DNA of 64,000 bases from Streptomyces sp. NBC_00461 (GTDB taxonomy: Bacteria > Actinomycetota > Actinomycetes > Streptomycetales > Streptomycetaceae), in NCBI RefSeq assembly GCF_036013935.1, contig NZ_CP107902.1, positions 8,093,001 through 8,157,000 on the forward strand, read 5' to 3'. Shown piece after piece: positions 5,054-20,947 of the stretch. The notes under the pieces are model-generated. The model was not told where the DNA came from, did not search any database, and saw nothing but the letters and a program-made list of their open reading frames with translations. Positions within the stretch are counted from its first letter, which is position 1. Each line of letters starts with the position of its first letter. A program made the position numbers and the translations under genes.

Positions 5054-5665
5054 ATGTTCGTTCGCACCGTGTACGCGACCGGAGATCCCTCGAAGGTCGA
5101 AACGGCCCTCAGGGCGTTGAACTCGCAGGGGCGGGACCTCCTGGAGGAGCGCCCGGGATACCGCGGGTCGGGCATCTTCGTGGACCGTGAGCTCGGCAAA
5201 CTGCTGGCGGTGAGCTGGTGGGAGTCCGAGGACACCCGGCGCAACAGCGACGAGGTCATGCGTGAGCGGCGGGCGTCGCTCCTGGAGCCGTTCGCGGCCA
5301 CGACCGCCGTCGACAACTACGAGGCGGTGGTCTTCCATCAGGTCCGGCAGCCCGCGGCCGGCGGCGGACTGCGGCTCACCAGGCTGGAGTTCGACCCCAT
5401 GGACGCGGACCTGCTCGCAGAGACCTTCCGCGCGTCGGTGGTCCCCAGGCTGGAGACCCTGGCCGGCCTGGCCAGGGCGTCCCTGCTGGTCGACCGGGAG
5501 CGTGGGCGCGGCCTGGTGGGCGCGCTGTTCACGGACCGCCACTCCCTCACCGCGTCCCGCGGGGCCCAGGCGGCGGCCCGGCACGAGGGCGCGGCCAAGG
5601 CGCATGTGACCGTGACCTCGCTGGAGGAGTTCGAGGTCGTCTTCACGGACGTGCGAGGCGGCTGA
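5054..5665 (+). CDS. Tandem ABM-fold (dimeric alpha-beta barrel) protein
   Basis: A 203-residue protein from ATG 5054 with GGGAGGCGAGG upstream. The sequence looks like two copies of the antibiotic biosynthesis monooxygenase-type alpha-beta barrel half: residues about 1-100 (FVRTVYATGDPSKVE... GIFVDRELGKLLAVSWWES) and about 105-203 (RLEFDPMDADLLAET... LLVDRERGRGLVGALFTD). Such proteins act as small oxygenases, or merely bind ligands. No catalytic residues can be assigned with confidence. It is convergent with the aldo/keto reductase and followed by a 22-bp tandem repeat and a strong hairpin. Confidence 0.6.
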   Translation: MFVRTVYATGDPSKVETALRALNSQGRDLLEERPGYRGSGIFVDRELGKLLAVSWWESEDTRRNSDEVMRERRASLLEPFAATTAVDNYEAVVFHQVRQPAAGGGLRLTRLEFDPMDADLLAETFRASVVPRLETLAGLARASLLVDRERGRGLVGALFTDRHSLTASRGAQAAARHEGAAKAHVTVTSLEEFEVVFTDVRGG

Positions 5666-5669
5666 CGCA

Positions 5670-5825
5670 TGTCGGGCGTGACTGCGACCCACCGTCCGGC
5701 GTGACGGCGACCCACGTCCGGTCTGACGGCGAACTACGTCCGGTCTGACGGCGGAACGCGTCCGGCCCAGCGACTGACGCACATCCGGCCTGACGGTGAG
5801 ACACGTCCGCCCCGCCGCGCGGGAG
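5670..5825. repeat. Degenerate 22-bp tandem repeat after a stop codon
   Basis: Seven units start at about 5670, 5693, 5715, 5737, 5759, 5782 and 5804. The best-conserved core is CGTCCGGTCTGACGGCGAAC, and the spacing is 22 bp (23 twice). The array begins within 8 bp of the upstream stop and its last unit forms the left arm of the terminator hairpin. The copies are only partly alike and contiguous, with no spacers, so this is not a CRISPR. Confidence 0.85.
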
Positions 5826-5873: not shown

Positions 5874-6710
5874 TCAGCCCATGTTGAAGGTGGTCGGGTC
5901 GGGGCCCAGGCGCCGGTCCTCGTTCAGTGCGCTGATCGCCGCCAGGTCCTCGGTGTCCAGGCTGAAGTCGAAGACCTCGATGTTCTCCTTGATCCGGGAC
6001 GGCGTCACGGACTTGGGGATCACGACGTTGCCGAGCTGGAGGTGCCAGCGCAGCACGACCTGGGCCGGGGTGCGGCCGTGCTTCTGGGCGATGGCGACCA
6101 CGGCCGGGACCTCCAGGAGGCCCTTGCCCTGGCCCAGCGGCGACCAGGCCTCGGTGGCGATGCCCTGCTCCGCGTGGTACTCGCGGGCCGCGTGCTGCTG
6201 CAGGTGCGGGTGCAGCTCGATCTGGTCGACGGCCGGGATGACCGACGTCTCGTCGATGAGCCGCCGCAGGTGGTCCGGCTCGAAGTTGGAGACACCGATC
6301 GCGCGGATACGGCCGTCGGCGTGCAGCTTCTCGAACGCCTTGTACGTGTCGACGTACTTGTCCCGCTGCGGGGTCGGCCAGTGGATCAGGTACAGGTCGA
6401 CGTACTCGAGGCCGAGCTTCTCCAGCGACGTGTCGAACGCGCGCAGCGTGGAGTCGTACCCCTGGTCGGAGTTCCAGAGCTTGGTGGTGACGAAGATGTC
6501 CTCGCGGGGGACACCGGAGGTGGCGATCGCCTTGCCGGTGCCCTCTTCATTGCCGTAGATCGCCGCTGTGTCGATGCTGCGGTACCCGGACTCCAGCGCG
6601 GTGGCGACCGCCCGCTCCGCCTCGTTGTCCGGCACCTGCCAGACGCCGAAGCCCAGCTGGGGCATCTCGACGCCGTTGTTGAGGATGATCGGGGGGACCT
6701 TGCTGCTCAC
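5874..6710 (-). CDS. Aldo/keto reductase
   Basis: A 278-residue protein from GTG 6710, chosen because AAGGA lies 10 nt upstream and the match to the family starts right there ([21 protein letters not shown]). The ATG at 6758 would add 16 residues of non-coding character. The AKR catalytic tetrad is visible: D47 and Y52 ([12 protein letters not shown]), K77 (VTTKLWN) and H110 (LIHWP). The family reduces aldehydes, ketones or 2,5-diketogluconate-like sugars with NADPH. The substrate is open. Divergent spacing to the pqq locus is 334 bp. Confidence 0.92.
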
Positions 6711-7044
6711 GAGCTTTTGATCCTTACGGTTGTCGTCAGGTGGCACTCCCATCGTCAACGATCACGGGCCGTGATGCATTCCTGACGGGAGAATCCACAG
6801 AGGATCCACTGAGATTCCACCGGAACTGACCCGTGAGTCAGTGCCCCGCGGTCGAGGTTGGCCGGAAATGCATCCGACGTCTTCGGTCCGGACCATTGAC
6901 CGCCACCCCTTTCTCCAGCAACTCTGGATCGCGCCACCGAACGAGTTCATGAACTTGGTGCATGCATGTGAACGCCTCGCGCCTGTCTGGGCATCTGAGA
7001 CGCATTTGAGACCCCCCACCCCTCAGGGAAGCAGGTACAGCCAC
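6711..7044 (+). promoter_or_regulatory. Upstream region of the pqqA-led operon
   Basis: This 334-bp stretch holds no convincing gene; an open frame overlaps it but lacks a ribosome-binding site and coding bias. It must contain the promoter of the pqq operon and of the divergent aldo/keto reductase. Visible structure: the perfect palindrome GTTCATGAAC (6945-6954), then TGCATGCA (6959-6966) followed by GTGAAC, a plausible operator cluster about 90 bp before pqqA. A TTGACC hexamer (6896-6901) could be a -35 box, but no good -10 partner is seen. Confidence 0.4.
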
Positions 7045-7194
7045 ATGAACGAGACGCTTCTTCACGCCCTCCGGACGGACCAGCCCGCCCTGGAATCGCC
7101 GGAGACATCGGATGAAAAGGTCTGGCGAAGCCCCGGTTACATGGTCGTGGAGACCGCACTTGAGGTGACCGCCTACGCCCTCGGCGACCGCTGA
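7045..7194 (+). CDS. pqqA: PQQ precursor peptide PqqA, N-terminally extended
   Basis: A 49-residue peptide from ATG 7045, with GCAGG 9 nt upstream. PqqA is the ribosomally made substrate whose Glu and Tyr are crosslinked by PqqE to make pyrroloquinoline quinone. The C-terminal 24 residues line up with classical 22-24-residue PqqA without gaps: W27, P30, Y32 and the ExxxY core E40-V-T-A-Y44. The first 25 residues (MNETLLHALRTDQPALESPE...) have no counterpart in the proteobacterial peptides I know, and codon 26 is GTC, so the core has no start of its own. It lies 22 bp before pqqC. The identity is strongly supported by pqqC, pqqD and pqqE next door. Confidence 0.88.
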   Translation: MNETLLHALRTDQPALESPETSDEKVWRSPGYMVVETALEVTAYALGDR

Positions 7195-7216
7195 CCGGCC
7201 GTACGGCGACCGCGCC

Positions 7217-7951
7217 ATGACCGCCACACCCGTGCTTGCCGACGGCGCCACCGCCCGGGGGACCGCCGAGTTCCCCGAGCGGCTGCGCGCCGTCGCCGCG
7301 GAGCGCTACCACCACCGTCACCCCTTCAACCTGCGGATGCATCGCGGTGAACTGAGCCCTGCCGAGCTGCGCCGCTGGATCGCCAACCGCTTCCACTACC
7401 AGCGCCACATCCCCGTCAAGGACGCCCTGATCCTTGCCAAGCTGGACCGGCCGGAGCTGCGCAGATCGTGGTTGCGCCGTATCCAGGACCACGACGGTAC
7501 GGCCGAGGGGGAGGGCGGGATCGAGCGCTGGCTGCGGCTCGGCGAAGCGGCCGGCCTGCGCCGCGACGAGCTGTGGGACGGCTCCCGGGTGCTGCCCGGA
7601 GTGCGCCTCGCCGTCGACGGATACGTCAACTTCTGCCGTCTGCGTCCGGCGCTGGACGCGATCGCCGCCTCCCTGACCGAGCTGTCCGCACCCGACCTGA
7701 TGCGCACCCGCATCGCCGCCTTCGAGCGCCACTACAACTGGATCGACCCCGACGGCCTCGCCTACTTCCGCACGCGCATCGGACAGGGCGGCCGCGACGG
7801 AGCCGAGGCCCTGGCCCTGGTCCTCGACCTCGCCCGCACCCACGAGCAGCAACAACGCGCCCTGGCTGCACTTGAGTTCAAGTGCGACGTGCTGTGGTCG
7901 CTGCTGGACGCGATGGACGGTTCCGACGTGGTGCACGGGAGCGGGCCATGA
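7217..7951 (+). CDS. pqqC: Pyrroloquinoline-quinone synthase PqqC
   Basis: A 244-residue protein, about the usual length (250). PqqC is the cofactorless oxidase that performs the last ring closure and eight-electron oxidation to PQQ. Family segments are visible: HPFNLRMHRGELSPAELRRWIANRFHYQ near the N-terminus, IPVKDALIL, and HYNWIDPDGLAYFRTRI, whose Tyr and Arg correspond to active-site residues of characterised PqqC. It is cytoplasmic. The stop overlaps the pqqD start (ATGA, 7948-7951). Confidence 0.95.
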   Translation: MTATPVLADGATARGTAEFPERLRAVAAERYHHRHPFNLRMHRGELSPAELRRWIANRFHYQRHIPVKDALILAKLDRPELRRSWLRRIQDHDGTAEGEGGIERWLRLGEAAGLRRDELWDGSRVLPGVRLAVDGYVNFCRLRPALDAIAASLTELSAPDLMRTRIAAFERHYNWIDPDGLAYFRTRIGQGGRDGAEALALVLDLARTHEQQQRALAALEFKCDVLWSLLDAMDGSDVVHGSGP

Positions 7952-8202
7952 GGTGGCTCCCGGCGCTCTCCCGCGGCGTCGTCCTGCGCCACGACCGCGT
8001 GCGGGGCACCGATCTGCTGCTGCTCCCCGAGCGCGTGGTCGTGCTGCGCGGCAGCGCCGGCCCTGTCGTCCGCCTCTGCGACGGGACACGCGCGGTGGAC
8101 GACATCGTCACCGAACTCGGCGAGCGGTACCCCGGCGCGCCCGTCGCCGGCGAAGTCCCCGGCTTCCTCACGGCGTTGAGAAAGGAGGGCTGGCTGACAT
8201 GA
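7948..8202 (+). CDS. pqqD: PQQ peptide chaperone PqqD
   Basis: An 84-residue winged-helix RRE protein starting at ATG 7948 within the pqqC stop. PqqD binds the PqqA peptide and presents it to the radical SAM enzyme PqqE. Family features are RWLPALSRGVVLRHDRVRG, LLLPERVVVLRGSAG and CDGTRAVDDIVTELGERYPG. Its stop overlaps the pqqE start (ATGA, 8199-8202), so PqqD and PqqE are translationally coupled, as fits a physical complex. Confidence 0.94.
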   Translation: MRWLPALSRGVVLRHDRVRGTDLLLLPERVVVLRGSAGPVVRLCDGTRAVDDIVTELGERYPGAPVAGEVPGFLTALRKEGWLT

Positions 8203-9275
8203 CCGTGGAGGCCCCCTGGGCGCTGCTCGCCGAACTCACGCACGGCTGTCCACTGCGCTGCGGATATTGCTCCAATCCCGTCGAACTGGTCGGTCGGTCA
8301 AAAGAGTTGGACTCTGGTCAGTGGTCCGACGTGTTCCGGCAGGCTGCCGACCTCGGCGTCGTACAGACACACCTGTCCGGCGGCGAACCCCTGCTCAGAC
8401 GCGACCTGCCCCGCATCGTCACGGCCGCGGACGGCGCCGGCCTCTACACCCAGCTGGTCACCAGCGGGGTGGGGCTGAGCGAGCGGCGCATGTCGGAACT
8501 CGCCGAGGCCGGCCTGCGCAGCGTCCAGCTCTCGGTGCAGCACGCCGATCCGCGGGTCTCCGAACGCATCGCGGGCGCCCGCTCGTTCGCGGCCAAGGAG
8601 CGCGCCGCCCGGCTGATCCGCGCCTCCGGACTCCCCTTCGGCCTCAACATCGTGCTGCACCGCGCCAACCTCGACGCCCTGGACGACCTGATCGACCTCG
8701 GTCTGCGGTGGGGCGCCGGCCGTATCGAACTCGCGCACACCCAGTTCCACGGCTGGGCGCTGCGCAACCGCGCCGCCTTGCTGCCGACCCGCGAACAGGT
8801 CGAGCAGGCCCGGGCCTCGGTCGCACATCGGCGTGAACTCCTCGACGGATCGGTGGAGTTGGTGTGGGTCGCTCCCGACTGGGTGGACGCCACGGCGAAA
8901 CCCTGCATGGGCGGCTGGGGTGCGCTCTCGCTCACCGTCACCCCGGACGGCACGGTCCTGCCCTGCCCTGCCGCGGCAGCGCTGCCGGACCTCGACCAGC
9001 CCAACGTGCGCGACAGTCGACTCGCCTGGATCTGGCGGGAGTCGAAGGCCTTCAACGCCTACCGCGGCGAGTCCTGGATGCCGGACCCCTGCCGCGGCTG
9101 CGCGCTCCGCTCCACCGACCACGGCGGCTGCCGCTGCCAGGCCCACGCGCTCACCGGCGACGCGACCCGCACCGACCCCGCCTGCCGGCACGCCCCCGAC
9201 CACCATCTCGTACGTGAACTCGTGCAGGGGCCGCGCGGCGGCCTCGCGTACGCCTACCGAAAGGGAGGAACATGA
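8199..9275 (+). CDS. pqqE: PqqA peptide cyclase PqqE (radical SAM/SPASM)
   Basis: A 358-residue protein from ATG 8199, with AAAGGAGGG about 10 nt upstream. PqqE forms the Glu-Tyr carbon-carbon bond in PqqA using S-adenosylmethionine and Fe-S clusters. The radical SAM cluster ligands are C17, C21 and C24 (HGCPLRCGYCSNP). The C-terminal SPASM region has the expected cysteines (KPCMGGWG, LPCPAAA, DPCRGCALRSTDHGGCRC). Its stop overlaps the start of the secreted GH105 gene (ATGA, 9272-9275), tying cofactor synthesis to the hydrolase genes. Confidence 0.95.
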   Translation: MTVEAPWALLAELTHGCPLRCGYCSNPVELVGRSKELDSGQWSDVFRQAADLGVVQTHLSGGEPLLRRDLPRIVTAADGAGLYTQLVTSGVGLSERRMSELAEAGLRSVQLSVQHADPRVSERIAGARSFAAKERAARLIRASGLPFGLNIVLHRANLDALDDLIDLGLRWGAGRIELAHTQFHGWALRNRAALLPTREQVEQARASVAHRRELLDGSVELVWVAPDWVDATAKPCMGGWGALSLTVTPDGTVLPCPAAAALPDLDQPNVRDSRLAWIWRESKAFNAYRGESWMPDPCRGCALRSTDHGGCRCQAHALTGDATRTDPACRHAPDHHLVRELVQGPRGGLAYAYRKGGT

Positions 9276-10465
9276 GACGCAGTCGTCTGCGGACGGCACT
9301 GACGACCCTCACTCTCGTCACCGCCGGCCTGGTCACCCTGCCGGCGGCCGTCCCACCTCCGGCCGCCTCCGCGTCCGTCGTCCCAGCGCACCGTCCGGCC
9401 GCCGCCCCCGACTGGTCCGTGGCGATGGTCGACTCCACCATGGCCCGCTACACGTCGAGCACCATCGGCGGCTGGTCCTATCCCGTGGGCCTCTACCTCT
9501 ACGGCCAGTACCTCACCTACCGGCGCACCCACGACGCCCGCTACCTGACGTACATCAAGAGCTACGTCGACCGGTTCGTGAGGAGCGACGGCTCCATCGA
9601 CCAGTCCTTCAACAGCCTGGACAGCATGCAGGCCGGCCGACTGCTGGTGATCCTGCACCACGAGACGGGCCAGGACCGCTACCGCAAGGCGGCGAAGAAG
9701 ATCCTCGACCGCCTGCGCACCTACCCGCGCACGGATGACGGCGGCTTCTGGCACGCGGACACCTCCAGCCGCGCCCACCAACTCTGGGCGGACGGCGTCT
9801 ACATGGTCAACCCGTTCCTGGTCGAGTACGGCAAGGAGTTCCGCAACGGCGGGTACACGGATGACGAGGCGACGAATCAGCTCTCCGTGTACGGCAGCCA
9901 CCTACAGGTCGCGAACGGGCTGCTCAAGCACGCCTACGACGAGTCGAAGAGCGTGAGCTGGGCCGACCCGCAGACCGGGCTCGCCCCCGAGCACTGGTGC
10001 CGCGCGGTCGGCTGGTACTCCATGGCGATCGTGAACGTCCTCGACGCCGTCCCGGCCGATCAGCCCCGCCGACCCCAACTGCTCACGATATTGCGCAAGT
10101 TGGCGGTCGGTCTGGAGAAGTACCAGGATCCGGCGACCGGACGCTGGTTCCAGGTGATGGACAAGGGCGGCCGCAGCGACAACTGGACCGAGACCTCCTG
10201 CTCCAGCATGTTCACCTACGCCCTCTCGCGCGGCGTCCAGCAGGGCTATCTCGATCCGCACTACGCGGCCGTGGCCCGTCGCGGCTACCAGGGTGTGCTG
10301 GCGAAGCTGTCGGTCGGCTCCGACGGCCGGACGAACCTCGCCGACATCACGATCGGCACGAACGTCGGCGACTACGCGTACTACATCGACCGCACCCGGG
10401 CCACCAACGACTTCCACGGCCTGGGCGCCTTTCTGATCATGAACGAACAGCTGCGAGGTGACTAG
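9272..10465 (+). CDS. Secreted GH105 unsaturated uronyl hydrolase
   Basis: A 397-residue protein starting at ATG 9272 (GGGAGGAAC upstream) and overlapping the pqqE stop. A Sec signal peptide (RRSRLRTALTTLTLVTAG... to about residue 34) precedes an (alpha/alpha)6 barrel with GH105 features: GWSYPVGLYLYGQYL, TYPRTDDGGFWHAD and HQLWADGVYMVNPFL, where the Asp of ADGVYM is the likely catalytic residue. GH105 enzymes remove the unsaturated uronic acid left by polysaccharide lyases, classically from rhamnogalacturonan. Many family members are intracellular, whereas this one carries an export signal. The next gene encodes a lyase-like protein, which would make the substrate. Confidence 0.88.
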   Translation: MRRSRLRTALTTLTLVTAGLVTLPAAVPPPAASASVVPAHRPAAAPDWSVAMVDSTMARYTSSTIGGWSYPVGLYLYGQYLTYRRTHDARYLTYIKSYVDRFVRSDGSIDQSFNSLDSMQAGRLLVILHHETGQDRYRKAAKKILDRLRTYPRTDDGGFWHADTSSRAHQLWADGVYMVNPFLVEYGKEFRNGGYTDDEATNQLSVYGSHLQVANGLLKHAYDESKSVSWADPQTGLAPEHWCRAVGWYSMAIVNVLDAVPADQPRRPQLLTILRKLAVGLEKYQDPATGRWFQVMDKGGRSDNWTETSCSSMFTYALSRGVQQGYLDPHYAAVARRGYQGVLAKLSVGSDGRTNLADITIGTNVGDYAYYIDRTRATNDFHGLGAFLIMNEQLRGD

Positions 10466-10469
10466 TGTC

Positions 10470-11258
10470 ATGAACGCATCCAGAAGGGTGCTGCTGGGCG
10501 CAGCCCTGGGCGGAGCCGCCACCGCGGCCGTCGGGCTGCCCGCGACCACCGCCCACGCCGCATCCTGGCAGCAGAAGTGGTCCCCGTCCGCGAGCGGTGA
10601 CGGGCTCGGCGCCTTCGAGACGATCGAGGACGACCGCGCCGGCTCGCATCCCGCCGGCCATCCGCACATCCTCGCCACCGGGAACAACTGGCGCTTCAAC
10701 ATGCACACCGTCGACCGCGACACGTCGACCGACCGCCAGCGCCAGGAGGTCACCGGCCTGCGCAACGGCAGCGGCAGCAACTACCTGAAGTGGACCCAGG
10801 GCCAGACCTGGCGGCTCACCTACTCCATGTACATCCCGAGCTCGCTGAAGGCGACCACCACCTTCACCCACATCATGCAGATGAAGCAGCCCGGTACCGG
10901 CTCCTCGCCGATCGTCGTGCAGTCGCTCCGCAGGGTGAACGGCAAGCAGACCATCGAGCTGAGGCTGGCCATCGAGGACATCCTCGTCGGCCGCACCGAC
11001 CTGGACCCACTGCACGACAAGTGGACGGACGTCGACTTCCAGATCAAGGTCGGCAACGGCTCGGCCGGCTCGATCCGCTGGATCCTCAAGTCCGGCGGCT
11101 CCACCGTCATCGACGCCTCGAAGACCGGCGTCGACACCTTCCTGGCCGACCGCGTGCGCCCGAAGTGGGGCATCTACCGATCCCTCGGCGACACCTCCGG
11201 GTCCCTTCAGGACACCTACCTCCTGCTCACCGGTCTCCGGGGCTACCAGCTCGTGTGA
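10470..11258 (+). CDS. Tat-secreted polysaccharide lyase-like jelly-roll protein
   Basis: A 262-residue protein from ATG 10470 (GAGGTG 9 nt upstream; a GTG at 10458 is possible but inside the previous gene). The N-terminus has a twin-arginine signal (SRRVLLGAALGG). The mature part resembles heparin-lyase-I-like/Polysacc_lyase jelly rolls: WRLTYSMYIPSSLKATTTFTHIMQMKQP, DKWTDVDFQIKVG and the C-terminal KWGIYRSLGDTSG. The family and neighbour GH105 suggest beta-elimination at a uronic acid, but the catalytic residues and substrate (glucuronan, rhamnogalacturonan or gum-type polymer) cannot be fixed from sequence alone. Confidence 0.65.
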   Translation: MNASRRVLLGAALGGAATAAVGLPATTAHAASWQQKWSPSASGDGLGAFETIEDDRAGSHPAGHPHILATGNNWRFNMHTVDRDTSTDRQRQEVTGLRNGSGSNYLKWTQGQTWRLTYSMYIPSSLKATTTFTHIMQMKQPGTGSSPIVVQSLRRVNGKQTIELRLAIEDILVGRTDLDPLHDKWTDVDFQIKVGNGSAGSIRWILKSGGSTVIDASKTGVDTFLADRVRPKWGIYRSLGDTSGSLQDTYLLLTGLRGYQLV

Positions 11259-11270
11259 GGAGCAGTCCAC

Positions 11271-14200
11271 ATGAAACCCCCCACCGTTCCACGACACAGA
11301 GCGGCGGCCGTCGTCCTGTTCGTCCTCGCGGTCGTCCTCGGACTCACCCACCCCGCGGCCGTCGCGGGGCCACAGCGCGCCCCACGTGCCGCCGCCGTCT
11401 TCGACGTACGCGACTACGGCGCAAAGGGAGACGGCTCCGCCAACGACACGCCGGCCATCAACAAGGCGATCACGGCAGCGAGTTCGGCCAGTGGCGGCGG
11501 CACCGTCCGCTTCCCCGCCGGCAGCTACAAGTCCAGGAACACCATCCACATGAAGAGCCATGTGACGCTCCAGGTCGACAAGGGCGCCACGATCCAGGGC
11601 TCCAGCGCGGACACCTACGACAAGGCCGAGTCCAACCCGTACGACGCCTACCAGGACTACGGGCACAGCCACTTCCACGACGCCATGATCTACGGCGACA
11701 AGCTGACCGACATCGGCTTCGTCGGACAGGGCGCGATCGACGGCATGGGCAACCTGATCACCGGCAACCCGAAGTCCGGCGAGGCCGACAAGATCATCTC
11801 GCTGACCCGCTGTGACGGCCTCCGCATCGGGGACGGGCTCACGCTCCGCCGCGGCGGCCACTTCGCGGCCCTCGTCAACGGCTGCGAGAACGTGACGTCG
11901 GACCACCTCACCATCGACACGGCGAGCGACCGCGACGGCTGGAACGTCATCTCCACCACGGACGTCACGATCACCAACGCCCACATCGAGGCCAACGACG
12001 ACGCGCTGGTCTTCAAGAGCGACTACGCCCTCGGCGCCAAGCTCGCCAGCGGCCACGTACGCGTCAACGACTCCTATCTGTCGGCCCGTTGCTGCAACGC
12101 CCTGATGTTCGGCTCCGAGACCTGCGGCGACTTCTCCGACTACCGCTTCGAGAACATCCGCATCGACGGCGCCGAGAAGTCAGGGCTCGGCATGGTGTCG
12201 ATGGACGGCGCGAAGATCTCCGACGTCCACTACCGCGACATCACGATGACGAACGTCCACTCGCCGATCATGCAGAAGATCGGCACCCGAAAGCGATGCG
12301 GGAACAGTCCCGGCATCGGATCGATCAGTGACATCACGTACGACAACATCACGGCCACCGGCAGCGGCCCCTCCTTCAGTCCGACCCTGTGGGGCGAGAC
12401 CGGCCACCGCATCGACGGCGTCAGCTTCAACAACGTCAACATCACGGTCCCGGGCGGCAACGGCACCCTGTCCACCGCGGTGCCGGGCAACGACCCGAAC
12501 GACTACAACCCCAAGAGCATCGGCACCCGGCCGGCGTACGGCTGGTATCTGCACAACGCCGACAACGTCCACTTCACCGACAGCTCGGTGAAGTTCGCGG
12601 CGAACGACGGCCGGCCGGCCGTCATCGCCAACGCGGCGAGCGGCATCCGTCTCACCCGGTTCACCGCGCAGAAGGGCAGCAACTCGCCGCACGACGTGGG
12701 CTTCCAGAACGTCACGGGCTACTGCCTGAGCGACAGCCACACCACCTCCGGCGGTGCGCTGCGGGTGTCGAGCAGCGGGTCGAGCGAGGACTGCGGTGCC
12801 GGTCCGGCCGTGAAGCCGCTCGACCTCGACAACCCCCGCCAGGACTTCCTCCGCGCCTCCGTCGGCGGCCTCTTCCTGCACTGGGGCCTGCGCACGGCGT
12901 CCGCCCACACCAGCTGCTCCGCCTGGGAGAACGACGTCACCAGCAGCGGCTGGACACCCGACTACTGGGTGGACGAGGCCCAGAAACTCCACACCCAGTA
13001 CCTGGTCCTCGCCACCTTCCACAGCCGCCTCGGCTACGCCCGCCCCTGGCCCTCCAAGATCCCCGGCTCCTGCTCCACCAAGCGGGACTTCCTCGGCGAG
13101 CTGATCACTGCGGCCAAGGCCAAGGGCATGAAGGTCATCCTCTACATGACCGACGACCCCCAGTGGCACGACGAGGGCGGTCACGAGTGGCTCGACTCGG
13201 CCGCCTACTCCGCCCACAAGGGCAAGAACGTCGACCTGACCACCCGCGACGGCTTCGGGCAGTTCAGCTACGACAACTTCTTCGAGGTCATGGACCGCTA
13301 TCCCGACCTCGGCGGCTTCTGGATCGACAACGACAACGCGTACTGGGAGAGCCACGACCTCTACCAGCAGATCTACCAGAAGCGCCCGAACTACACGCTC
13401 AGCAACAACAACGAAGACACGCCGATCATGGACATGATCAGCAACGAGCAGAAGACGGGAATGACCCCCGCCTACGACTACCCGCAGGCGATCTACACCG
13501 CCCAACCCCGCCTGACCGAGGCCGACTTCAAGCTGCCCTCGACCGGCGCCTGGTGGTACGACGGCTCCGACCCGGCCGTCGACAAGAAGCTCACCCTCGG
13601 CCGGCTGATCACCAACGCGGGCTCCTCCGTGAAGGCACTGATGGCCGAGACCGCCCAGGTCAACGGCCGCTTCCCCAGCAACCAGGCCTCCTTCAACACC
13701 TTCGCGAACTCCTATCTCGCCCCCATCTGGGAGTCCCTGCACGGCACCGAGGGCGGCGGCTACATGTACGGCGGCCTCAAGCCCGGCTTCTGGAACGACG
13801 GTGCGCACGGTGTCACGACGATCAGCAAGACGGACCCGAACCGGCAGTACGTGCACGTCCTGACCCCGCCCGGCACCAGCACCCTGCGTATCCGCGACAA
13901 CGGCTACCGCATCGCCTCGGTCACCAACCTCCGTACGGGAGCGGCGGTTTCATGGTCGCAGTCGGGCGGCGTGCTGACGCTGACCGGACTCGGCGGCTGG
14001 GACCCGTACGACACCGTGTTCAAGGTCATCACCGCCGGACGGCAGGGCATCCTCACCGGCGTCGACGCGACCGCGAGCACCTCCGCGAGCGGCCACGCAG
14101 GGTCGGCCGCGAGCGACGGCGACCACCTCACCTACTGGGACAACAACAAGAAGCTGCCCGCGAACCTCACCTTCGACCTCGGCTCGGCCAAGAAGGTCCA

Positions 14201-14522
14201 GTACATCGGGCTCAACCAGCGCGAGGACTCCGTCGCCTACGCCCGCTCGGACACCGAGCAGTCGGCGCGGATCAAGGACTACAAGGTGTACCTGAGCAAC
14301 GACGGCTCGACCTGGGGGAGCGCCGTCAAGACAGGGCAGCTCCCAAGTCGCCGTGGAATCCAGGGCATTGACCTCACCGCGGCCGATGCCCGCTACGTCC
14401 GCCTGGAGGTCGACACCACCTGGGCCGGGTCCGGCGACACCACGCGCTACAAGCGGCTGCGGATCGACGAGGCATGGATCGGCACCAGCTACGCGACGCC
14501 CGTGAACGGGGGACATTCATGA
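11271..14522 (+). CDS. Secreted GH28-GH29-CBM32 fusion
   Basis: A 1083-residue three-module protein from ATG 11271. Signal peptide to about residue 34. Residues about 43-505: right-handed beta-helix of GH28 (polygalacturonase/rhamnogalacturonase) type, with VFDVRDYGAKGDG at its start and the acidic motif EANDDALVFKSD. Residues about 525-870: GH29 fucosidase-like domain with GLFLHWGL, TQYLVLATFHSRLGY and the nucleophile region GGFWIDNDN. Residues about 925-1075: F5/8-type C (CBM32-like) domain. GH28 cuts galacturonan backbones; GH29 removes alpha-L-fucose or similar terminal sugars. Both activities on one chain suggest a decorated pectic substrate. Its stop overlaps the next start (ATGA, 14519-14522). 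Confidence 0.85.
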   Translation: MKPPTVPRHRAAAVVLFVLAVVLGLTHPAAVAGPQRAPRAAAVFDVRDYGAKGDGSANDTPAINKAITAASSASGGGTVRFPAGSYKSRNTIHMKSHVTLQVDKGATIQGSSADTYDKAESNPYDAYQDYGHSHFHDAMIYGDKLTDIGFVGQGAIDGMGNLITGNPKSGEADKIISLTRCDGLRIGDGLTLRRGGHFAALVNGCENVTSDHLTIDTASDRDGWNVISTTDVTITNAHIEANDDALVFKSDYALGAKLASGHVRVNDSYLSARCCNALMFGSETCGDFSDYRFENIRIDGAEKSGLGMVSMDGAKISDVHYRDITMTNVHSPIMQKIGTRKRCGNSPGIGSISDITYDNITATGSGPSFSPTLWGETGHRIDGVSFNNVNITVPGGNGTLSTAVPGNDPNDYNPKSIGTRPAYGWYLHNADNVHFTDSSVKFAANDGRPAVIANAASGIRLTRFTAQKGSNSPHDVGFQNVTGYCLSDSHTTSGGALRVSSSGSSEDCGAGPAVKPLDLDNPRQDFLRASVGGLFLHWGLRTASAHTSCSAWENDVTSSGWTPDYWVDEAQKLHTQYLVLATFHSRLGYARPWPSKIPGSCSTKRDFLGELITAAKAKGMKVILYMTDDPQWHDEGGHEWLDSAAYSAHKGKNVDLTTRDGFGQFSYDNFFEVMDRYPDLGGFWIDNDNAYWESHDLYQQIYQKRPNYTLSNNNEDTPIMDMISNEQKTGMTPAYDYPQAIYTAQPRLTEADFKLPSTGAWWYDGSDPAVDKKLTLGRLITNAGSSVKALMAETAQVNGRFPSNQASFNTFANSYLAPIWESLHGTEGGGYMYGGLKPGFWNDGAHGVTTISKTDPNRQYVHVLTPPGTSTLRIRDNGYRIASVTNLRTGAAVSWSQSGGVLTLTGLGGWDPYDTVFKVITAGRQGILTGVDATASTSASGHAGSAASDGDHLTYWDNNKKLPANLTFDLGSAKKVQYIGLNQREDSVAYARSDTEQSARIKDYKVYLSNDGSTWGSAVKTGQLPSRRGIQGIDLTAADARYVRLEVDTTWAGSGDTTRYKRLRIDEAWIGTSYATPVNGGHS

Positions 14523-16786
14523 TCCGGATCAGATCACTCGCGGCGACCGTGGCCGGCCTGCTCGTCGCCGCCGCCGTGCCGCTCATGGGCACCGCGCACA
14601 CGGCGGCCGCCTCCGACAACGGCCAGTCGGTCCGCCCCGCCATGGGCTGGAGCAGCTGGAGTTTCGTGCGTCGCACGCCGACCGAGGCGAAGATCAGGGC
14701 CCAGGCGGACGCGCTCGTGTCGAGCGGCCTCAAGGACCACGGTTTCGTCTACGTCAACCTCGACGACTTCTGGCAGAAGTGCGACTCGAACGGCTTCGTC
14801 GTCGACAACTACGGCCGCTGGACGGCCGATTCGGCCAAGTTCCCGGCCGGCATCAAGGCACTGGCCGACTACGTCCACTCCAAGGGCCTGAAGTTCGGCT
14901 TCTACGTGACGCCCGGCATCGCCAAGAACGCCGTCACCAGGAACACGCCGATCGAGGGGACCTCGTACCACGCGAAGGACATCGCGGACACCTCGAAGAC
15001 CGAGAAGAACTACAACTGCAAGAACATGTACTACATCGACTACTCCAAGCCGGGAGCGCAGGAGTTCGTGAACTCGTGGGCCAGGCAGTTCGCCTCCTGG
15101 GGAGTCGACTACCTGAAGATCGACGGCGTAGGCAGCCAGGACGTCCCCGACGTGCAGGCCTGGGACAAGGCCCTGCGGGCGAGCGGACGGCCCATCAACT
15201 TCGCGCTCTCCAACAACCTGCCGATCGCCGACGCCACCACCTGGCGCAAGCTCGCGAACAGTTGGCGTACCCAAGGTGACGTCGAGTGCTACTGCGGCCC
15301 CGGCTCCAACGGCAGCGGCTATCCGCTCACCGACTGGTCTCATGTCTCGGCCCGCTTCAACACGGCCGCGTCCTGGCAGCCGCACGCAGGTCCGGGCGGC
15401 TGGAACGACCTGGACTCGCTGGAGGTCGGCAACGGCGATCAGGTGGGCCTCACAGCCGATCAGCGCCGCTCCCACTTCACGCTGTGGGCGATGGCAGCCT
15501 CGCCGTTGCTGCTGGGCACCGACCTCACCCACCTCGACTCCGTCGACAAGGCGATGCTCACCAACGACCGGCTGACAGGCGTGGACCAGGATGGGGTCGC
15601 CGCGAAACGGGTTGTGAACAGTGGTGTCAAGCAGGTCTTCAGTAAACGGGAGAACAGCGGCGAGTACGTGGTCGCGCTGTTCAACACCGGGACGTCCGGC
15701 AATGCCACGGTCAGTGTGAACTGGTCGCAGGTCGGCTTCACCGGTTCCGGCGACGTCACCGACCTGTGGTCCGGCGCGCACAAGGGCGTGATCGCGGACT
15801 CGTACAGCGCAACGCTGCGACCGGGTGAAACACGACTTGTGCGTGTGAAGCCGGTTAACAGCGACAACGTTTCTGCAGCCTCGGTGACCACCGCAGCCGC
15901 CCCCGGCATGGCCGTCGCCCCCTACGAATACCTCGGCTGGGGCAACCCGCAGAACCCCACCTCCGTGATGTCCGCGACCGGCGTCAAGTGGTTCACCCTG
16001 GCCTTCGTCCTCTCCGACGGCACCTGCAACCCGAAGTGGGACGGTTCCCGTCCGCTGACGAGCGGCAGCGACCAGTCCACGATCAACGCGATCAGAGGGG
16101 CAGGCGGTGACGTCGTCGTGTCCGTCGGCGGCTGGAGCGGCGCGAAGCTCGGCGAGAAGTGCTCCAGCGCCGCCAAGCTCGCCGGCGCCTACCAGAAGGT
16201 GATCGACGCCTACAGGCTGAAGGTCCTCGACATCGACATCGAGAACACCGAGTGGTCCAACGCCACCGTCCGTCAACGTGTCGTCGACGCGCTGAAGACG
16301 GTCAAGGCGGACAACCCGGGCCTCAAGACGGTCATCACCTTCGGCACGACCACCAGCGGCCCCGACTCCACCGGCGTCGACATGATCAAGCGAGCGGCCA
16401 ACTCCGGTCTGGCGAACGATGTCTGGTGCATCATGCCGTTCGACTTCGGCGGCGGCTCGACCACCATGGGCACGCTCACCACCCGGGCCATGGAAGGCCT
16501 CAAGGCCAGGGTCAAGTCGGCATACGGCTACAGCGACGCCAGTGCCTACGCGCACATCGGCCTGTCGTCGATGAACGGCAGGACCGACGACTCCGGCGAG
16601 CGCGTCCGGGTCGCCGACTTCAAGACCATGCTCGCCTATGCCCAACAGCACCACATCGGGCGCCTCACGTACTGGTCCGTCAACCGCGACCGCGCCTGCG
16701 GCTCCGGCACCGACGGCGACTCCTGCAGCGGTGTCCCGCAGCAGCCCTACGACTACCTCAAGGTCTTCACCCAGTACACGGGTTGA
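14519..16786 (+). CDS. Secreted GH27-GH18 fusion
   Basis: A 755-residue protein from ATG 14519, overlapping the previous stop. Signal peptide to about residue 30. Residues about 34-450: GH27 alpha-galactosidase with PAMGWSSWSFV, the nucleophile in DYLKIDGVG and acid/base in GGWNDLDSLEVG, plus a C-terminal beta domain. A short Ala/Thr linker follows. Residues about 468-755: GH18-like barrel with VVVSVGGWSGAKLG and the DxDxE signature as LDIDIEN. GH27 removes terminal alpha-galactose (or beta-L-arabinopyranose); GH18 acts on GlcNAc-type linkages. Two such unlike activities on one chain are unusual; the GH18 part could also serve as a binding domain if the wider active site is altered. Confidence 0.87.
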   Translation: MIRIRSLAATVAGLLVAAAVPLMGTAHTAAASDNGQSVRPAMGWSSWSFVRRTPTEAKIRAQADALVSSGLKDHGFVYVNLDDFWQKCDSNGFVVDNYGRWTADSAKFPAGIKALADYVHSKGLKFGFYVTPGIAKNAVTRNTPIEGTSYHAKDIADTSKTEKNYNCKNMYYIDYSKPGAQEFVNSWARQFASWGVDYLKIDGVGSQDVPDVQAWDKALRASGRPINFALSNNLPIADATTWRKLANSWRTQGDVECYCGPGSNGSGYPLTDWSHVSARFNTAASWQPHAGPGGWNDLDSLEVGNGDQVGLTADQRRSHFTLWAMAASPLLLGTDLTHLDSVDKAMLTNDRLTGVDQDGVAAKRVVNSGVKQVFSKRENSGEYVVALFNTGTSGNATVSVNWSQVGFTGSGDVTDLWSGAHKGVIADSYSATLRPGETRLVRVKPVNSDNVSAASVTTAAAPGMAVAPYEYLGWGNPQNPTSVMSATGVKWFTLAFVLSDGTCNPKWDGSRPLTSGSDQSTINAIRGAGGDVVVSVGGWSGAKLGEKCSSAAKLAGAYQKVIDAYRLKVLDIDIENTEWSNATVRQRVVDALKTVKADNPGLKTVITFGTTTSGPDSTGVDMIKRAANSGLANDVWCIMPFDFGGGSTTMGTLTTRAMEGLKARVKSAYGYSDASAYAHIGLSSMNGRTDDSGERVRVADFKTMLAYAQQHHIGRLTYWSVNRDRACGSGTDGDSCSGVPQQPYDYLKVFTQYTG

Positions 16787-16797
16787 GGGGAACACCC

Positions 16798-18828
16798 ATG
16801 AATCTGAAGAGAGTCCTGCCGTACGGCGTGGCCGCGGCCCTCGCCCTGCCCCTCGCGGGCCTGAGCCAGGGCACCGCGCTCGCCGCCACCGACTACCAGG
16901 CCGAGAACGCCCAGATCTCGCAGGGCACCGTGGCCACCAACCACACCGGATACACGGGCACCGGCTTCGTCGACTACACCAACGTCAAGGGTTCCTCCGT
17001 GGAGTTCACGGTGAGCGCGGCCGCCGCGGGCACCTCGGCGGTGACCTTCCGGTACGCCAACGGCACGTCAGTGGACCGCCCGATGGACATCTCGGTGGGC
17101 GGCACGGTCGTCGCCTCCGCTGTGTCCTTCCCGGCCACAGCCGACTGGAACACCTGGACCACGAAGACCGTCAACGTCCCGCTCACCGCCGGCTCCGACA
17201 AGATCCGCGCGACCGCCACCACCGCGAACGGCGGCCCCAACCTGGACCGGATCAGCGTCGACGCGGCGGCCGACGCCCAGGCTCCGACCCGCCCCGGCCC
17301 GCCCAGTTGCTCCGACATCGGGGAAGACACGCTCACCCTGGCCTGGGGTGCCTCGACGGACAACGTGGCCGTGACGGCGTACGACCTGTACGAGCACGGC
17401 AACAAGATCGGTGAGGTGCCGGGGAGTTCGACCTCCAGGACGCTGACCGGGCTGACCCCGAACACCACCTACGACCTCACCGTCATCGCCCGCGACGCGG
17501 CGGGCAACACCTCCTCCGCCAGCCCCGTCGTCGACTGCACCACCAAGCCCAGCTCCGACACCACCGCGCCGACCAGGCCGGGCACCCTGTCCGCCGCCGG
17601 CGTCACGGCGAACAGCGCCGACCTGACGTGGGGTGCCTCCACGGACGACCGGGCCGTCGTCGCCTACGACGTGCGCAGCGCCGGCACCGTCTACAAGACC
17701 GTTACCTCCGGCACGTCCACGACGCTCACCGGGCTCGCCTGCAACAGCCCGTACTCGCTGAACGTGGCAGCCCGCGACGCAGCGGGCAATGTCTCACCGG
17801 AGAGCAACACGGTGAGTTTCACGACCAAGGCGTGCGCGACGGACGGCGGCGTCCCGTCCTCCGTCTCCACCCTCTCCACCGGCTGGACCATCCCCTGGGG
17901 CACCTACTGGATGCCCGACGGGAAGACCGCGCTGGTCACCGAGCGGGACGACTTCCGGGTCTGGAAGGTGACCAAGGACGGCACGCGGACCCAGGTCGGC
18001 ACGGTCCCCAACGCCGTCACCACCAACGGCGAGGGCGGTCTGCTCGGCGTGGCGGCCGACCCCAGGTGGGACACCAACCACTACGTCTACTTCATGCACA
18101 CCGCGTCCGAAGGCAACCGCGTGGTCCGCATGACCTACGACGGCACGAGTCTCAGCGACTACAAGGTCCTGCTCCAGGGCATCAAGAAGAACCGCTACCA
18201 CAACGGCGGCCGCCTCCTCTTCGGCCCCGACGGCTACCTGTACGTCTCCACCGGCGAGGCCCAGACGCCCGACCTCGCGCAGGACAAGAACTCCCTCAAC
18301 GGCAAGATCCTGCGCATGACGACGGACGGGAAGGCGGCCCCCGGCAACCCGTTCGGCAACTACGTCTACAGCCTCGGCCACCGCAACCCGCAGGGCCTCG
18401 CCTTCGACCGCAACGGCCGCCTGTGGGAAGCGGAGTTCGGCAACAGCTCCAAGGACGAACTGAACCTCATCAAGCCGGGCGCCAACTACGGCTGGCCCAC
18501 CTGCGAGGGCAACTGCAGCGTCTCCGGGATGACCAACCCGAAGGCCACCTGGAACGTCTCCGAGGCCTCGCCCAGCGGCATCGCGATCGTCCGCAACGTC
18601 GTCTACATGGCCTCGCTGCGCGGCGAACGGCTGTGGCGGATCCCGATCAACGGCGACAACGAGAGCGTCGGCACACCGACGGCGTACTACGTGGGAACGT
18701 ACGGCCGTCTGCGGACCGTGACCAAGGTGCCGGGCTCCGACCAGCTGTGGCTGTCGACCACCAACTGCGACAACAACGGAAACGAGCCGGACGGATCGGA
18801 CAAGCTCTTCCGGGTGAACATCAGCTGA
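16798..18828 (+). CDS. Secreted PQQ-dependent sugar dehydrogenase with CBM and two FN3 domains
   Basis: A 676-residue protein from ATG 16798, 11 bp after the GH27-GH18 stop. Signal peptide to about residue 30; CBM35/CBM6-like module about 31-158 (YQAENAQ... NLDRISVD); two FN3 domains about 165-345; then a six-bladed beta-propeller of the soluble glucose/sorbosone dehydrogenase family to the end. The PQQ-site His is in RYHNGGRLLFGPDGYLYVS (H468), and the Arg follows in GHRNPQGLAFD. It would oxidise a sugar or oligosaccharide released outside the cell and pass electrons on. It is the natural user of the cofactor made by the pqq genes at the head of the same gene run. Confidence 0.88.
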   Translation: MNLKRVLPYGVAAALALPLAGLSQGTALAATDYQAENAQISQGTVATNHTGYTGTGFVDYTNVKGSSVEFTVSAAAAGTSAVTFRYANGTSVDRPMDISVGGTVVASAVSFPATADWNTWTTKTVNVPLTAGSDKIRATATTANGGPNLDRISVDAAADAQAPTRPGPPSCSDIGEDTLTLAWGASTDNVAVTAYDLYEHGNKIGEVPGSSTSRTLTGLTPNTTYDLTVIARDAAGNTSSASPVVDCTTKPSSDTTAPTRPGTLSAAGVTANSADLTWGASTDDRAVVAYDVRSAGTVYKTVTSGTSTTLTGLACNSPYSLNVAARDAAGNVSPESNTVSFTTKACATDGGVPSSVSTLSTGWTIPWGTYWMPDGKTALVTERDDFRVWKVTKDGTRTQVGTVPNAVTTNGEGGLLGVAADPRWDTNHYVYFMHTASEGNRVVRMTYDGTSLSDYKVLLQGIKKNRYHNGGRLLFGPDGYLYVSTGEAQTPDLAQDKNSLNGKILRMTTDGKAAPGNPFGNYVYSLGHRNPQGLAFDRNGRLWEAEFGNSSKDELNLIKPGANYGWPTCEGNCSVSGMTNPKATWNVSEASPSGIAIVRNVVYMASLRGERLWRIPINGDNESVGTPTAYYVGTYGRLRTVTKVPGSDQLWLSTTNCDNNGNEPDGSDKLFRVNIS

Positions 18829-18858
18829 GTGAACATCAGCTGAGCGAACGTCGCCTGA
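18814..18858 (+). repeat. 15-bp tandem triplication across a stop codon
   Basis: GTGAACATCAGCTGA at 18814-18828 is repeated exactly at 18829-18843 and, with four changes, at 18844-18858 (GCGAACGTCGCCTGA). Each copy encodes V/A-N-I/V-S/A-stop, so the dehydrogenase gene ends in three stop codons in frame. Confidence 0.95.
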
Positions 18859-18871
18859 CGGGACGTCAGGC
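18853..18871. terminator. Hairpin at the end of the pqq/GH operon
   Basis: GCCTGACG (18853-18860) pairs perfectly with CGTCAGGC (18864-18871) around a 3-nt loop. It overlaps the stop of the convergent acyl-CoA synthetase gene and may act in both directions. Confidence 0.55.
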
Positions 18872-20692
18872 CCGGTAGAGCGCCTCGACCTCGTTGGCGT
18901 AGGCGTTCTCGATGGCCTTCCGCTTCAGCTTCAGGGACGGGGTCAGCAGACCGTGTTCCTCGGTGAACGGCTGGGCCAGTATGCGGAAGGTGCGGATCGA
19001 CTCGGCCTGGGAGACGAGGGTGTTGGCGGCGACCACCGCGCGCCGCACCTCCGTCTCCAGGTCGGCGTCGCGCACCAGCTGGGCCGGTGACATCTGCGGC
19101 TTGCCACGCATCGTCAGCCAGTGCTCGACGGCCTCCTGGTCGAGGGTGACCAGGGCGGCGATGTACGGGCGGTCGTTGCCGACGACTATGCACTGGTTGA
19201 CCAGCGGATGGTCGCGGACACGCTCCTCCAGCACCGCCGGGGAGACGCTCTTGCCGCCGGAGGTCACGAGGATCTCCTTCTTGCGGCCGGTGATGGTGAG
19301 GTAGCCGTCCTCGTCGAGGGCGCCCAGGTCACCGGTGGCGAGCCAGCCGTCGTGCAGGGTCGCGTCGGTGGCCTTCTGGTTGTTCAGGTAGCCCTGGAAG
19401 ATGTTGGCGCCGTGCAACCAGATCTCGCTGTCGTCCCCGATGTGCACGGTGACGCCCGGGATGGGCTGCCCGACGGTGCCGTAACGAGTGCGCCCCGGCG
19501 GGTTGGCGGTCGCGGCCGCCGTCGACTCCGTGAGGCCGTAGCCCTCGTAGATCTGCACACCCGCGCCCGCGAAGAACAGGCCGAGCCGCCGGTCCATCGC
19601 CGAGCCGCCCGAGATGGCGTTGCGGAGGCGGCCGCCCATGGCGGCCCGGACCTTGGAGTACACGAGCTTGTCGAACAGCTGGTGCTGCATGCGCAGACCC
19701 GCCGACGGGCCCGGACCGATGCCCCAGGCCTTCGCCTCGACGGCGTCCGCGTACTTCACGGCGACGTCGACGGCCTTCTCGAACGGCCCCGCCTTGCCCT
19801 CCTTCTCGGCCTTGCGGCGGGAGGCGTTGAAGACCTTCTCGAAGATGTACGGCACCGCGAGGATGAACGTCGGCTTGAACACCTGCAGGTCCGGCAGCAG
19901 TGCGGCGGCGTTCAGCTGCGGCTGGTGGCCGAAGCGGATCCCGTGGCGGATCGCGGTGACCTGCACCATCCGCCCGAAGACGTGCGCGAGCGGCAGGAAC
20001 AGCAGGGTCGCCGCCTCGTCGCCCTTCTTGGAGTGGAACACCGGCCCCATGTGCTCGGCGACCGTGTCCGCCTCGTACATGAAGCTGGCGTGCGTGATGA
20101 CACAGCCCTTGGGGCGGCCCGTGGTGCCCGAGGTGTAGATGACCGTCGCGGTCGAGTCGGGCGTGACCGCCTGACGGTGCCGGTGGACCACGTCGTCGTC
20201 GATGTACGCGCCGGCGTCGTACAGCTCCTGCACGGCGTCGGAGTCGAGCTGCCACAGCTGGTGCAGGTGCGGCAGCCGGTCGATGACGGTGGCGATCGTC
20301 ATCGCGTGGTCCTCGTGCTCCACGACCGCCGCCGTGCACTCGGCGTCGTACAGCGCCCAGAAGCACTGCTCGGCCGACGAGGTGGGGTAGATCGGCACCA
20401 CCTGCGCGCCGATCGTCCACAGCGCGAAGTCGAAGAGGGTCCACTCGTAGCGGGTACGGGACATGATCGCGACGCGGTCGCCGAACCGGATGCCGCGGGC
20501 GAGCAGCCCCTTGGCGAGGGCCAGCACCTCGTCCCGGAACTCGGCCGAGGTCACGTCACGCCACTGTTCCTGCTCGTCCTTGCGGCCGAGAGCGATGTGC
20601 AGCGGGTCGTCCTGGGCACGCTCGAAGACGACGTCGGCCAGGCCGCCCACCGGCGGTGACAACGCCAACGGAGGGTTGGTGAACTCGCGCAA
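18866..20692 (-). CDS. Long-chain fatty-acid--CoA ligase (AMP-binding)
   Basis: Called as 608 residues from TTG 20692 (LREFTNPPLALSPP), with GGGGAG just upstream. The frame stays open to a GTG at 20821 (651 residues), but the extra codons have many A/T third bases and look non-coding. ATP/AMP motif YTSGTTGRPKG, a SGGSAMDRRLGLFF helix, YEGYGLTES, the hinge DLGALDEDGYLTITGRKKE and the catalytic Lys region LKLKRKAIENAY are all present. It activates fatty acids to acyl-CoA for beta-oxidation or lipid synthesis. It stands alone, convergent with the PQQ dehydrogenase. Confidence 0.92.
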   Translation of the reverse strand: MREFTNPPLALSPPVGGLADVVFERAQDDPLHIALGRKDEQEQWRDVTSAEFRDEVLALAKGLLARGIRFGDRVAIMSRTRYEWTLFDFALWTIGAQVVPIYPTSSAEQCFWALYDAECTAAVVEHEDHAMTIATVIDRLPHLHQLWQLDSDAVQELYDAGAYIDDDVVHRHRQAVTPDSTATVIYTSGTTGRPKGCVITHASFMYEADTVAEHMGPVFHSKKGDEAATLLFLPLAHVFGRMVQVTAIRHGIRFGHQPQLNAAALLPDLQVFKPTFILAVPYIFEKVFNASRRKAEKEGKAGPFEKAVDVAVKYADAVEAKAWGIGPGPSAGLRMQHQLFDKLVYSKVRAAMGGRLRNAISGGSAMDRRLGLFFAGAGVQIYEGYGLTESTAAATANPPGRTRYGTVGQPIPGVTVHIGDDSEIWLHGANIFQGYLNNQKATDATLHDGWLATGDLGALDEDGYLTITGRKKEILVTSGGKSVSPAVLEERVRDHPLVNQCIVVGNDRPYIAALVTLDQEAVEHWLTMRGKPQMSPAQLVRDADLETEVRRAVVAANTLVSQAESIRTFRILAQPFTEEHGLLTPSLKLKRKAIENAYANEVEALYRA

Positions 20693-20947
20693 ACCCCGCT
20701 CCCCGCTCCTCAGCGCCCTGTAATGAGTGACACTCCGTGCAGCGCCGTGAAAGCTACCCCACACGGGGAGAGGGCGGGAGGGGGGTCGAAGCCGGGCGGT
20801 GGCCTCGTGCGTGCTGGTCACGGCCCGGAAAATGCGCTCACATCGGTAAGGGTCGGACAGAAACCTGACGGTTGAGTAAGTTTCGGTCCCCTAATCTCCA
20901 CCGAATCTGTACGACCTTGCCGCGGCCCCCGCCGCACGTCAGCGGCC

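Follow-up and report, generated by a model that had tools for sequence, protein, structure and literature searches.

What might genes for the synthesis of pyrroloquinoline quinone (PQQ) be doing at the head of a run of genes for the degradation of polysaccharide, and which polysaccharide would such a run attack? The question is raised by a 64,000-nucleotide stretch of Streptomyces sp. NBC_00461 (contig NZ_CP107902.1, positions 8,093,001 to 8,157,000; hereafter the window, in which positions are counted from its first letter), the genome being a single contig of 10.37 Mb. Nine genes on one strand, between 7045 and 18828, encode PqqA, PqqC, PqqD and PqqE, a glycoside hydrolase (GH) of family 105, a polysaccharide lyase, a GH28-GH29-F5/8C protein, a GH27-GH18 protein and a glucose/sorbosone-type dehydrogenase (GSDH) preceded by a carbohydrate-binding module (CBM) of family 35 and two Fn3 domains. 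The reading somewhat favoured here, from sequence comparison, is of an extracellular polysaccharide-degradation operon of Streptomyces that carries at its 5' end the synthesis of the cofactor for its own secreted quinoenzyme, with the wall of Mucoromycota fungi as the favoured target.

The run is tightly packed, and the description given in a first-pass annotation of the window, of nine genes on one strand with no gap above 22 bp and four 4-bp ATGA overlaps, is borne out. The 22 bp separate pqqA (7045-7194) from pqqC (7217), and the overlaps lie at pqqC/D (7948-7951), pqqD/E (8199-8202), pqqE/GH105 (9272-9275) and GH28/GH27 (14519-14522), with an alternative GH27 start at ATG 14474. The lyase may start at GTG 10458, overlapping GH105 by 8 bp, or at ATG 10470, leaving a gap of 4 bp; 12 bp then separate it from GH28, and 11 bp lie between GH27-GH18 and GSDH (ATG 16798). 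No terminator-like site was detected on the plus strand in 6700-19200, the four detected there all being on the minus strand (shuffled sequences average 4.8 over both strands), and one promoter would drive the whole run. The N-termini of the enzymes are signal-like when judged by eye and secretion is predicted. Since tens of species have the same genes in the same order, some with fewer enzymes, the arrangement is not one of chance, and the claim that pqq genes lead into secreted-type enzymes of uronic acid polymers and a quinoenzyme with PQQ ligands stands, the arrangement being conserved.

In PQQ synthesis the precursor peptide PqqA, of which ExxxY is the functional motif, is crosslinked by PqqE and PqqD, with PqqB and PqqC having their own roles. 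PqqC, PqqD and PqqE of the window all pass the curated family cut-offs, whilst the pqqA product, which has no family match in Pfam or NCBIfam, contains Glu-x3-Tyr (EVTAY) and ends ...VVETALEVTAYALGDR. The run itself holds no pqqB, the sole TIGR02108 match in the genome lying at 1470968-1471858, and a second complete cluster (GSDH-pqqA-pqqB-pqqC-pqqD-pqqE), the PqqE of which is 71% identical to that of the window by tblastn, is found 6.6 Mb away. It had been proposed that the cofactor is made from the same transcript as the hydrolases; this does not hold for that transcript alone, given the missing pqqB and the second cluster. PqqA would be crosslinked by PqqE and PqqD and the product completed by PqqC, together with PqqB from elsewhere in the genome.

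Whether pqqB-less loci have simply lost the ability to make PQQ was considered within a comparison set of 392 same-genus genomes, one per species and some fragmented, and was rejected, since pqqB is carried elsewhere in 12/12 genomes whose pqqE lies only in readable pqqB-less loci (17/17 handles tested), a set that excludes two loci at contig edges (G150, with pqqB on another contig, and G218, with no pqqB match). The background is 17/306 pqqE-less genomes with pqqB, a figure which may be low as the survey omits 7 pqqE genomes, in 6 of which tblastn places pqqB beside pqqE. The unlinked pqqB copies (L241-L256) are mostly 37-46% identical to the pqqB of the window genome, with one at 59%, and it is likely that a distant pqqB serves the pqqB-less loci. 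Two Streptomyces clusters ordered C-D-E-B (L043, L079) sit on long pqqE branches outside the main group.

The probable user of the cofactor is the last gene of the run. Its GSDH domain matches PF07995 at 234.3 bits and PDB 3das of S. coelicolor at 9.7e-91, and H, R, N, R, R and R are retained at the aligned PQQ-ligand places (a list drawn in part from PMC6881789). It belongs by sequence with the soluble aldose sugar dehydrogenases (3DAS, 2ISM, 3A9G, s-GDH) and shares their His/Arg/Asn/Arg PQQ ligands, yet differs from them in its CBM35 and two Fn3 domains and in being encoded behind pqq genes. The binding module scores 26.7 bits against Pfam CBM_35, just below the cut-off of 28, and 42.3 against CBM_6, above cut-off, and it aligns over 122 residues (1.2e-43) with 2vzp, Chi-CBM35 of the Amycolatopsis exo-glucosaminidase. 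The CBM35 of that enzyme is grouped among the uronate-binding CBM35s in one part of PMC9843283. The module would keep GSDH on a uronate polymer, where GSDH with PQQ and Ca2+ would oxidise the freed aldoses and pass electrons to a presumed acceptor. A comparable joining of a secreted PQQ sugar oxidase to a carbohydrate-binding module is seen in the fungal pyranose dehydrogenase CcPDH/CcSDH of family AA12, and as this enzyme oxidises L-fucose according to part of PMC4133262, fucose is worth testing as a GSDH substrate. The substrate of the window enzyme is a prediction and the two are only distantly alike, AA12 and bacterial enzymes being given as 15-20% identical in part of PMC6881789, with no CcPDH entry among the 53 PDB sequences that match GSDH at 1e-3. 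Some 30 kb downstream (window 49180-51684) a further protein combines a GSDH domain with PKD and CBM6 domains.

How far the arrangement extends was judged from 101 pqqE loci compared by tblastn (99 fetched, the window and the second cluster), pqqE being above cut-off in 86/392 genomes. The suggested search for pqqE near GH105 or GH28 genes was fruitful: GH105, GH28 or GH29 genes lie downstream of pqqE in 24 of the 86 pqqE-bearing genomes. By locus, 17 without pqqB and 7 with it have such genes downstream; a further 11 are followed by GSDH, lyase or GH18 alone and the other 66 by no gene of any of these kinds, the full enzyme set not being present in all 24 cassette loci (L118, L129, L132, L134 and L136, for example, hold fewer). 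Many of the 66 have GSDH upstream or divergent, and since the pqq-GSDH neighbourhood is thus common in the genus it is the hydrolase cassette that is the special part. The pqqE genes of the 17 pqqB-less cassette loci group as a single clade (100/97) that branches from among cassette and GSDH forms; those of the 7 pqqB-bearing cassette loci are not one group. An aldo/keto reductase gene is found in 29/101 loci and an acyl-CoA ligase gene in 27/101, and these common flanks suggest one chromosomal site. Approached from the hydrolases, GH28-GH29 relatives occur in 55/392 genomes, of which 38, with about 75% identity or more over the GH29 part, were selected manually as cassette genomes; pqqE is present in 25/38 of these versus 61/354 of the remaining genomes (Fisher p=8e-10, kinship uncorrected).

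The polysaccharide attacked was first thought to be of pectin type. That idea keeps the GH28 domain and the YteR-like GH105 enzyme (family membership of the latter resting on PF07470 and PDB 1nc5), but is made doubtful by the lyase fold (in one ranking), GH29, CBM35 and the GH75 neighbour. The model of the lyase is closest to the glucuronan lyase 2zzj (family PL20) in the VIA ranking, at 12% sequence identity, and no pectate lyase is among the 50 matches listed in either the VIA or the Foldseek ranking, a family missing from the matches listed not being thereby excluded. GH29 membership follows from a Pfam score above cut-off and from the fold, all 50 Foldseek matches listed for the domain model being alpha-L-fucosidases, whilst the GH18 half of the window protein has no Pfam match at 1e-3 and matches the PDB chitinase 9buf at 5e-47. 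A GH75 chitosanase gene, in the window on the opposite strand upstream of the run and beyond the aldo/keto reductase, flanks 16/24 cassette loci versus 0/77 other pqqE loci. A zygomycete wall is no poorer a match than pectin for the glucuronan-lyase-like fold, GH29, CBM35, GH18 and the GH75 neighbour, and the lyase fold, GH29, CBM35 and the GH75 association together suggest the Mucoromycota wall, with its chitin/chitosan, glucuronan and fucose, as target. The lyase and GH105 would cleave a polymer rich in glucuronic acid, with GH29, GH27, GH28 and GH18 taking off fucose, galactose, uronate and chitin parts. The nearest parallels are the Trichoderma glucuronan lyase TrGL and a proposed pairing of glucuronan lyase with chitinase against Mucorales walls (PMC7601620); the lyase of the run is similar in fold (2zzj, in the VIA ranking) and the pairing is alike in idea, but this lyase is bacterial, of low identity, and placed in a run with PQQ synthesis genes.

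Several observations weigh against a fungal wall, and they keep alive, as a possible though doubtful alternative, a plant target, either rhamnogalacturonan-I or a fucosylated root mucilage or gum, with GH75 and GH18 unrelated or accessory. The closest relative of GH105 is the rhamnogalacturonan enzyme YteR (7e-79) and the nearest relative of GH28 is the rhamnogalacturonidase BT4146 (303 bits, under the cut-off of 500), both pointing to plant rhamnogalacturonan-I; GH27 also aligns over its full length with a beta-L-arabinopyranosidase, and a further relative of the CBM35 (2w47, 1e-27) is a module of a rhamnogalacturonan acetyl esterase. Foldseek places alginate lyases above 2zzj, and all 16 GH75 neighbours fall within one pqqE clade and are thus not independent. 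The GH8 proteins of some relatives are nearest to PDB 5xd0, a 'Glucanase' (5e-100), with the chitosanases 7cju and 1v5c next at about 1e-68; adding GH8 would give 19 rather than 16/24, and counting these proteins as chitosanases was dropped as 5xd0 is nearest. What a plant target leaves unexplained is the lyase, closest to a glucuronan lyase in the VIA ranking and with no pectate lyase among the 50 matches listed in either, the GH75 association and a GH18 domain that is fused or adjacent. Four expanded cassettes (L185, L188, L113, L117) have many enzymes with CBM35-like modules and a GH8 gene each.

Two conserved elements are candidates for the control of the run. O1 lies upstream of the -35-like TTGACC box in most of the pqq-bearing and pqq-less loci shown (a sigma-70 scan of the run region gave no sites, TTGACC not being called). 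O2 lies inside pqqA, and in the pqqA genes that head cassettes the codons for (E/Q/K)TS(D/E)E(K/R) mostly spell RACATCSGAKGAAA. At one mismatch or fewer it precedes pqqB or pqqC in 43/51 pqq loci with a cassette downstream versus 0/76 other pqq loci, these pooled pqq-bearing numbers being inflated by at least 8 genomes present twice (L130/L145, L141/L147, L128/L166, L138/L168, L122/L173, L104/L182, L121/L198, L117/L188) and L148, at a contig edge, being scored as a non-match. The rare codons ACA (12/292 Thr) and GAT (13/258 Asp, over seven neighbouring genes) are kept in most O2 rows, so that O2 seems to be conserved as DNA and not as peptide alone. Cassettes without pqq carry it exactly in 26/34 upstream regions and at one mismatch or fewer in 28/34, versus 0/680 shuffled regions, and in 8 pqq-less loci it is inverted, 33-60 bp before GH105, at one mismatch or fewer. 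O2 looks like an operator that persists before GH105 without pqq, and possibly together with O1 it would be bound by a putative regulator. A genome-wide O2 regulon was rejected, there being one exact copy and four one-mismatch sites versus one for the control, and the element looks specific to this locus. The window has no further O2-like site at two mismatches.

It is also possible, at much the same level of doubt as the plant target, that O2 is a conserved motif of the PqqA leader (ETSDEK) accompanied by decay relics of common ancestry, and no operator. O2 lies in the reading frame of pqqA, a number of the pqq-less loci are no more than relics, the single exact copy in the genome is as this would have it, and the related genomes are not independent, their common ancestry weakening the O2 counts. 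The likeness of CATCCGACGTCTTC in O1 to the reverse complement of O2 (12/16 bases) is equalled by 36/1000 shuffles and the kinship of the two elements is only suggestive. A leader motif would not easily account for the rare codons, for O2 where no pqqA is found or inverted, or for its absence from the 76 non-cassette pqq loci.

The operon reading has also to accommodate cassettes that do without pqq. Coupling of pqq to hydrolases, as first claimed, is conserved though not obligatory, as a GH29-domain tree of 80 cassettes has 40 with pqq and 40 without (6 of the latter with a pqqA relic), requiring at least 10 changes of which 5 are forced by well-supported branches. The pqqA relics show loss, and some tree changes could be gains. 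Decay is seen at different stages in different species: pqqA fused to the end of pqqE in S. guryensis (L144), stop codons inside pqqA in L149 and L172, a pqqA in L155 that is still open but has its ExxxY Tyr replaced by Cys and precedes a pqqE remnant, the ExxxY Glu lost in L177 and a partial match in L175. An intact orphan pqqA acting as a separate signal was rejected, all six tblastn matches in pqq-less loci being fused, interrupted, altered or partial.

The oxidase often outlasts the pqq genes. Among the 38 cassette genomes 13 have no pqqE (none at E<=1e-90), and in 13/13 of these GSDH retains all seven of the residues compared (H R N E R R R). Its reading frame is uninterrupted through the signal-like N-terminus, the CBM and the remainder in 12/13; the exception is L233, in which the CBM part lies outside the GSDH frame. 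In L233 and also L190 the ligands are kept and the frame stops short of the CBM and signal, possibly a broken or rearranged 5' end. Of 75 named loci 46 lack pqqC and pqqE, and GSDH lies within the fetched flank in 30 of them, leaving 16, 6 of them Streptomyces, with none within reach; six cassettes unlinked to pqqE in pqqE-bearing genomes (L235-L240) include two without GSDH and one with a fragment. PQQ would also be obtainable from elsewhere, whether a second cluster or neighbouring organisms, and this would account for cassettes being able to do without the pqq genes. A more far-reaching version is tentative and rather unlikely to hold in full: a zygomycete-wall operon with its own PQQ factory, in which pqqA doubles as operator DNA that outlives the gene, and in which PQQ synthesis, its product being shareable, is repeatedly dropped while the secreted oxidase, its PQQ ligands complete, is kept and served by the PQQ of neighbours. 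That pqq and hydrolases are mere neighbours, their co-location without functional meaning, is improbable, for although half of the tree loci have the cassette without pqq and a complete pqq cluster exists elsewhere in the genome, there are also the 4-bp overlaps, the recurrent order with GSDH last, the pqqE enrichment, a promoter block and O2 common to the loci, and a GSDH gene adjoining the second pqq cluster.

Operons of the pqqABCDE kind are known in Klebsiella, Methylobacterium and Pseudomonas types, and methanol or glucose dehydrogenase genes are known neighbours of PQQ operons. The window run resembles them in its PqqC, PqqD and PqqE, which meet the family models, in the ExxxY of PqqA and in the order A-C-D-E; unlike them it lacks pqqB, presumably supplied from elsewhere in the genome, continues into five hydrolase, lyase and quinoenzyme genes and carries an element inside pqqA. 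The first-pass annotation's statement that it knew of no described pqq operon reading directly into pectin-type hydrolase genes agrees with the open-access literature searched, in which none that enters a polysaccharide-degradation cassette was found, subscription papers not being covered. Gram-positive gene clusters of carbohydrate-active enzymes and polysaccharide utilisation loci likewise have co-oriented enzyme genes, but the run differs from these in including cofactor biosynthesis and in having no transporter or regulator; nor is an electron acceptor among the genes of 7045-18828, which counts against the favoured reading.

Table 1. Features of the run, its flanks and the second pqq cluster (window positions unless stated).
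Feature	Position	Strand	Basis
pqqA, 49-aa precursor, ExxxY = EVTAY	7045-7194	+	read from sequence
pqqC	7217-7951	+	TIGR02111 281.9 bits (cut-off 240)
pqqD	7948-8202	+	TIGR03859 70.3 bits (cut-off 46)
pqqE	8199-9275	+	TIGR02109 481.7 bits (cut-off 381)
GH105, signal-like N-terminus, YteR-like unsaturated uronyl hydrolase	9272-10465	+	PF07470 (GH88/105) 304.6 bits; PDB 1nc5 YteR 7e-79
Polysaccharide lyase, Tat-like N-terminus, glucuronan-lyase-like fold	10458-11258	+	fold comparison
GH28 + GH29 alpha-L-fucosidase-like + F5/8C module	11271-14522	+	Pfam/NCBIfam (GH28 70.3 bits; GH29 41.2, cut-off 25.2); GH29 domain model
GH27 + GH18 (chitinase-like, DIDIE motif by eye)	14519-16786	+	Melibiase_2 140.2 bits; PDB chitinase 9buf
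CBM35-Fn3-Fn3-GSDH quinoprotein sugar dehydrogenase	16798-18828	+	PF07995; 3das; 2vzp; PQQ ligands
O1, conserved block just upstream of -35-like TTGACC; contains CATCCGACGTCTTC	6864-6887	+	before pqq-bearing and pqq-less cassettes
-35-like TTGACC	6896-6901	+	CCATTGACC in most cassette upstream regions shown
O2, RACATCSGAKGAAA, inside pqqA codons (E)TSDEK, proposed operator	7104-7117	+	conservation
GH75 chitosanase-family protein, syntenic cassette neighbour	4166-5782	-	PF07335 85.8 bits; PDB chitosanase V-Csn 2.2e-11
Aldo/keto reductase, left flank common to site	5874-6758	-	PF00248
AMP-dependent acyl-CoA ligase, right flank common to site	18866-20821	-	PF00501
Second cluster (locus L010, genome 1459000-1478999), GSDH-pqqA-pqqB-pqqC-pqqD-pqqE	9836-14215 within L010		read from sequence

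Further glycan-enzyme-like genes, towards the left of the window, encode a GH6 protein (119-1438), a DUF4185 protein (23557-24783) and a BNR/laminin-G protein (24794-27418), and a ROK-family regulator (41815-43005) is followed by an ABC ATPase (43094-44611).

If the favoured reading is true, extracellular oxidation by a quinoenzyme would be tied to the attack on polysaccharide, perhaps that of fungal walls, in common soil bacteria. The run would provide a candidate enzyme set for mucoran and glucuronan, and O2 in pqqA a concrete site with which to find a regulator. The series of loci in which pqq is intact, has pqqB split off, is a relic or is absent would then be a natural one in which to study the exchange of PQQ among soil microbes.

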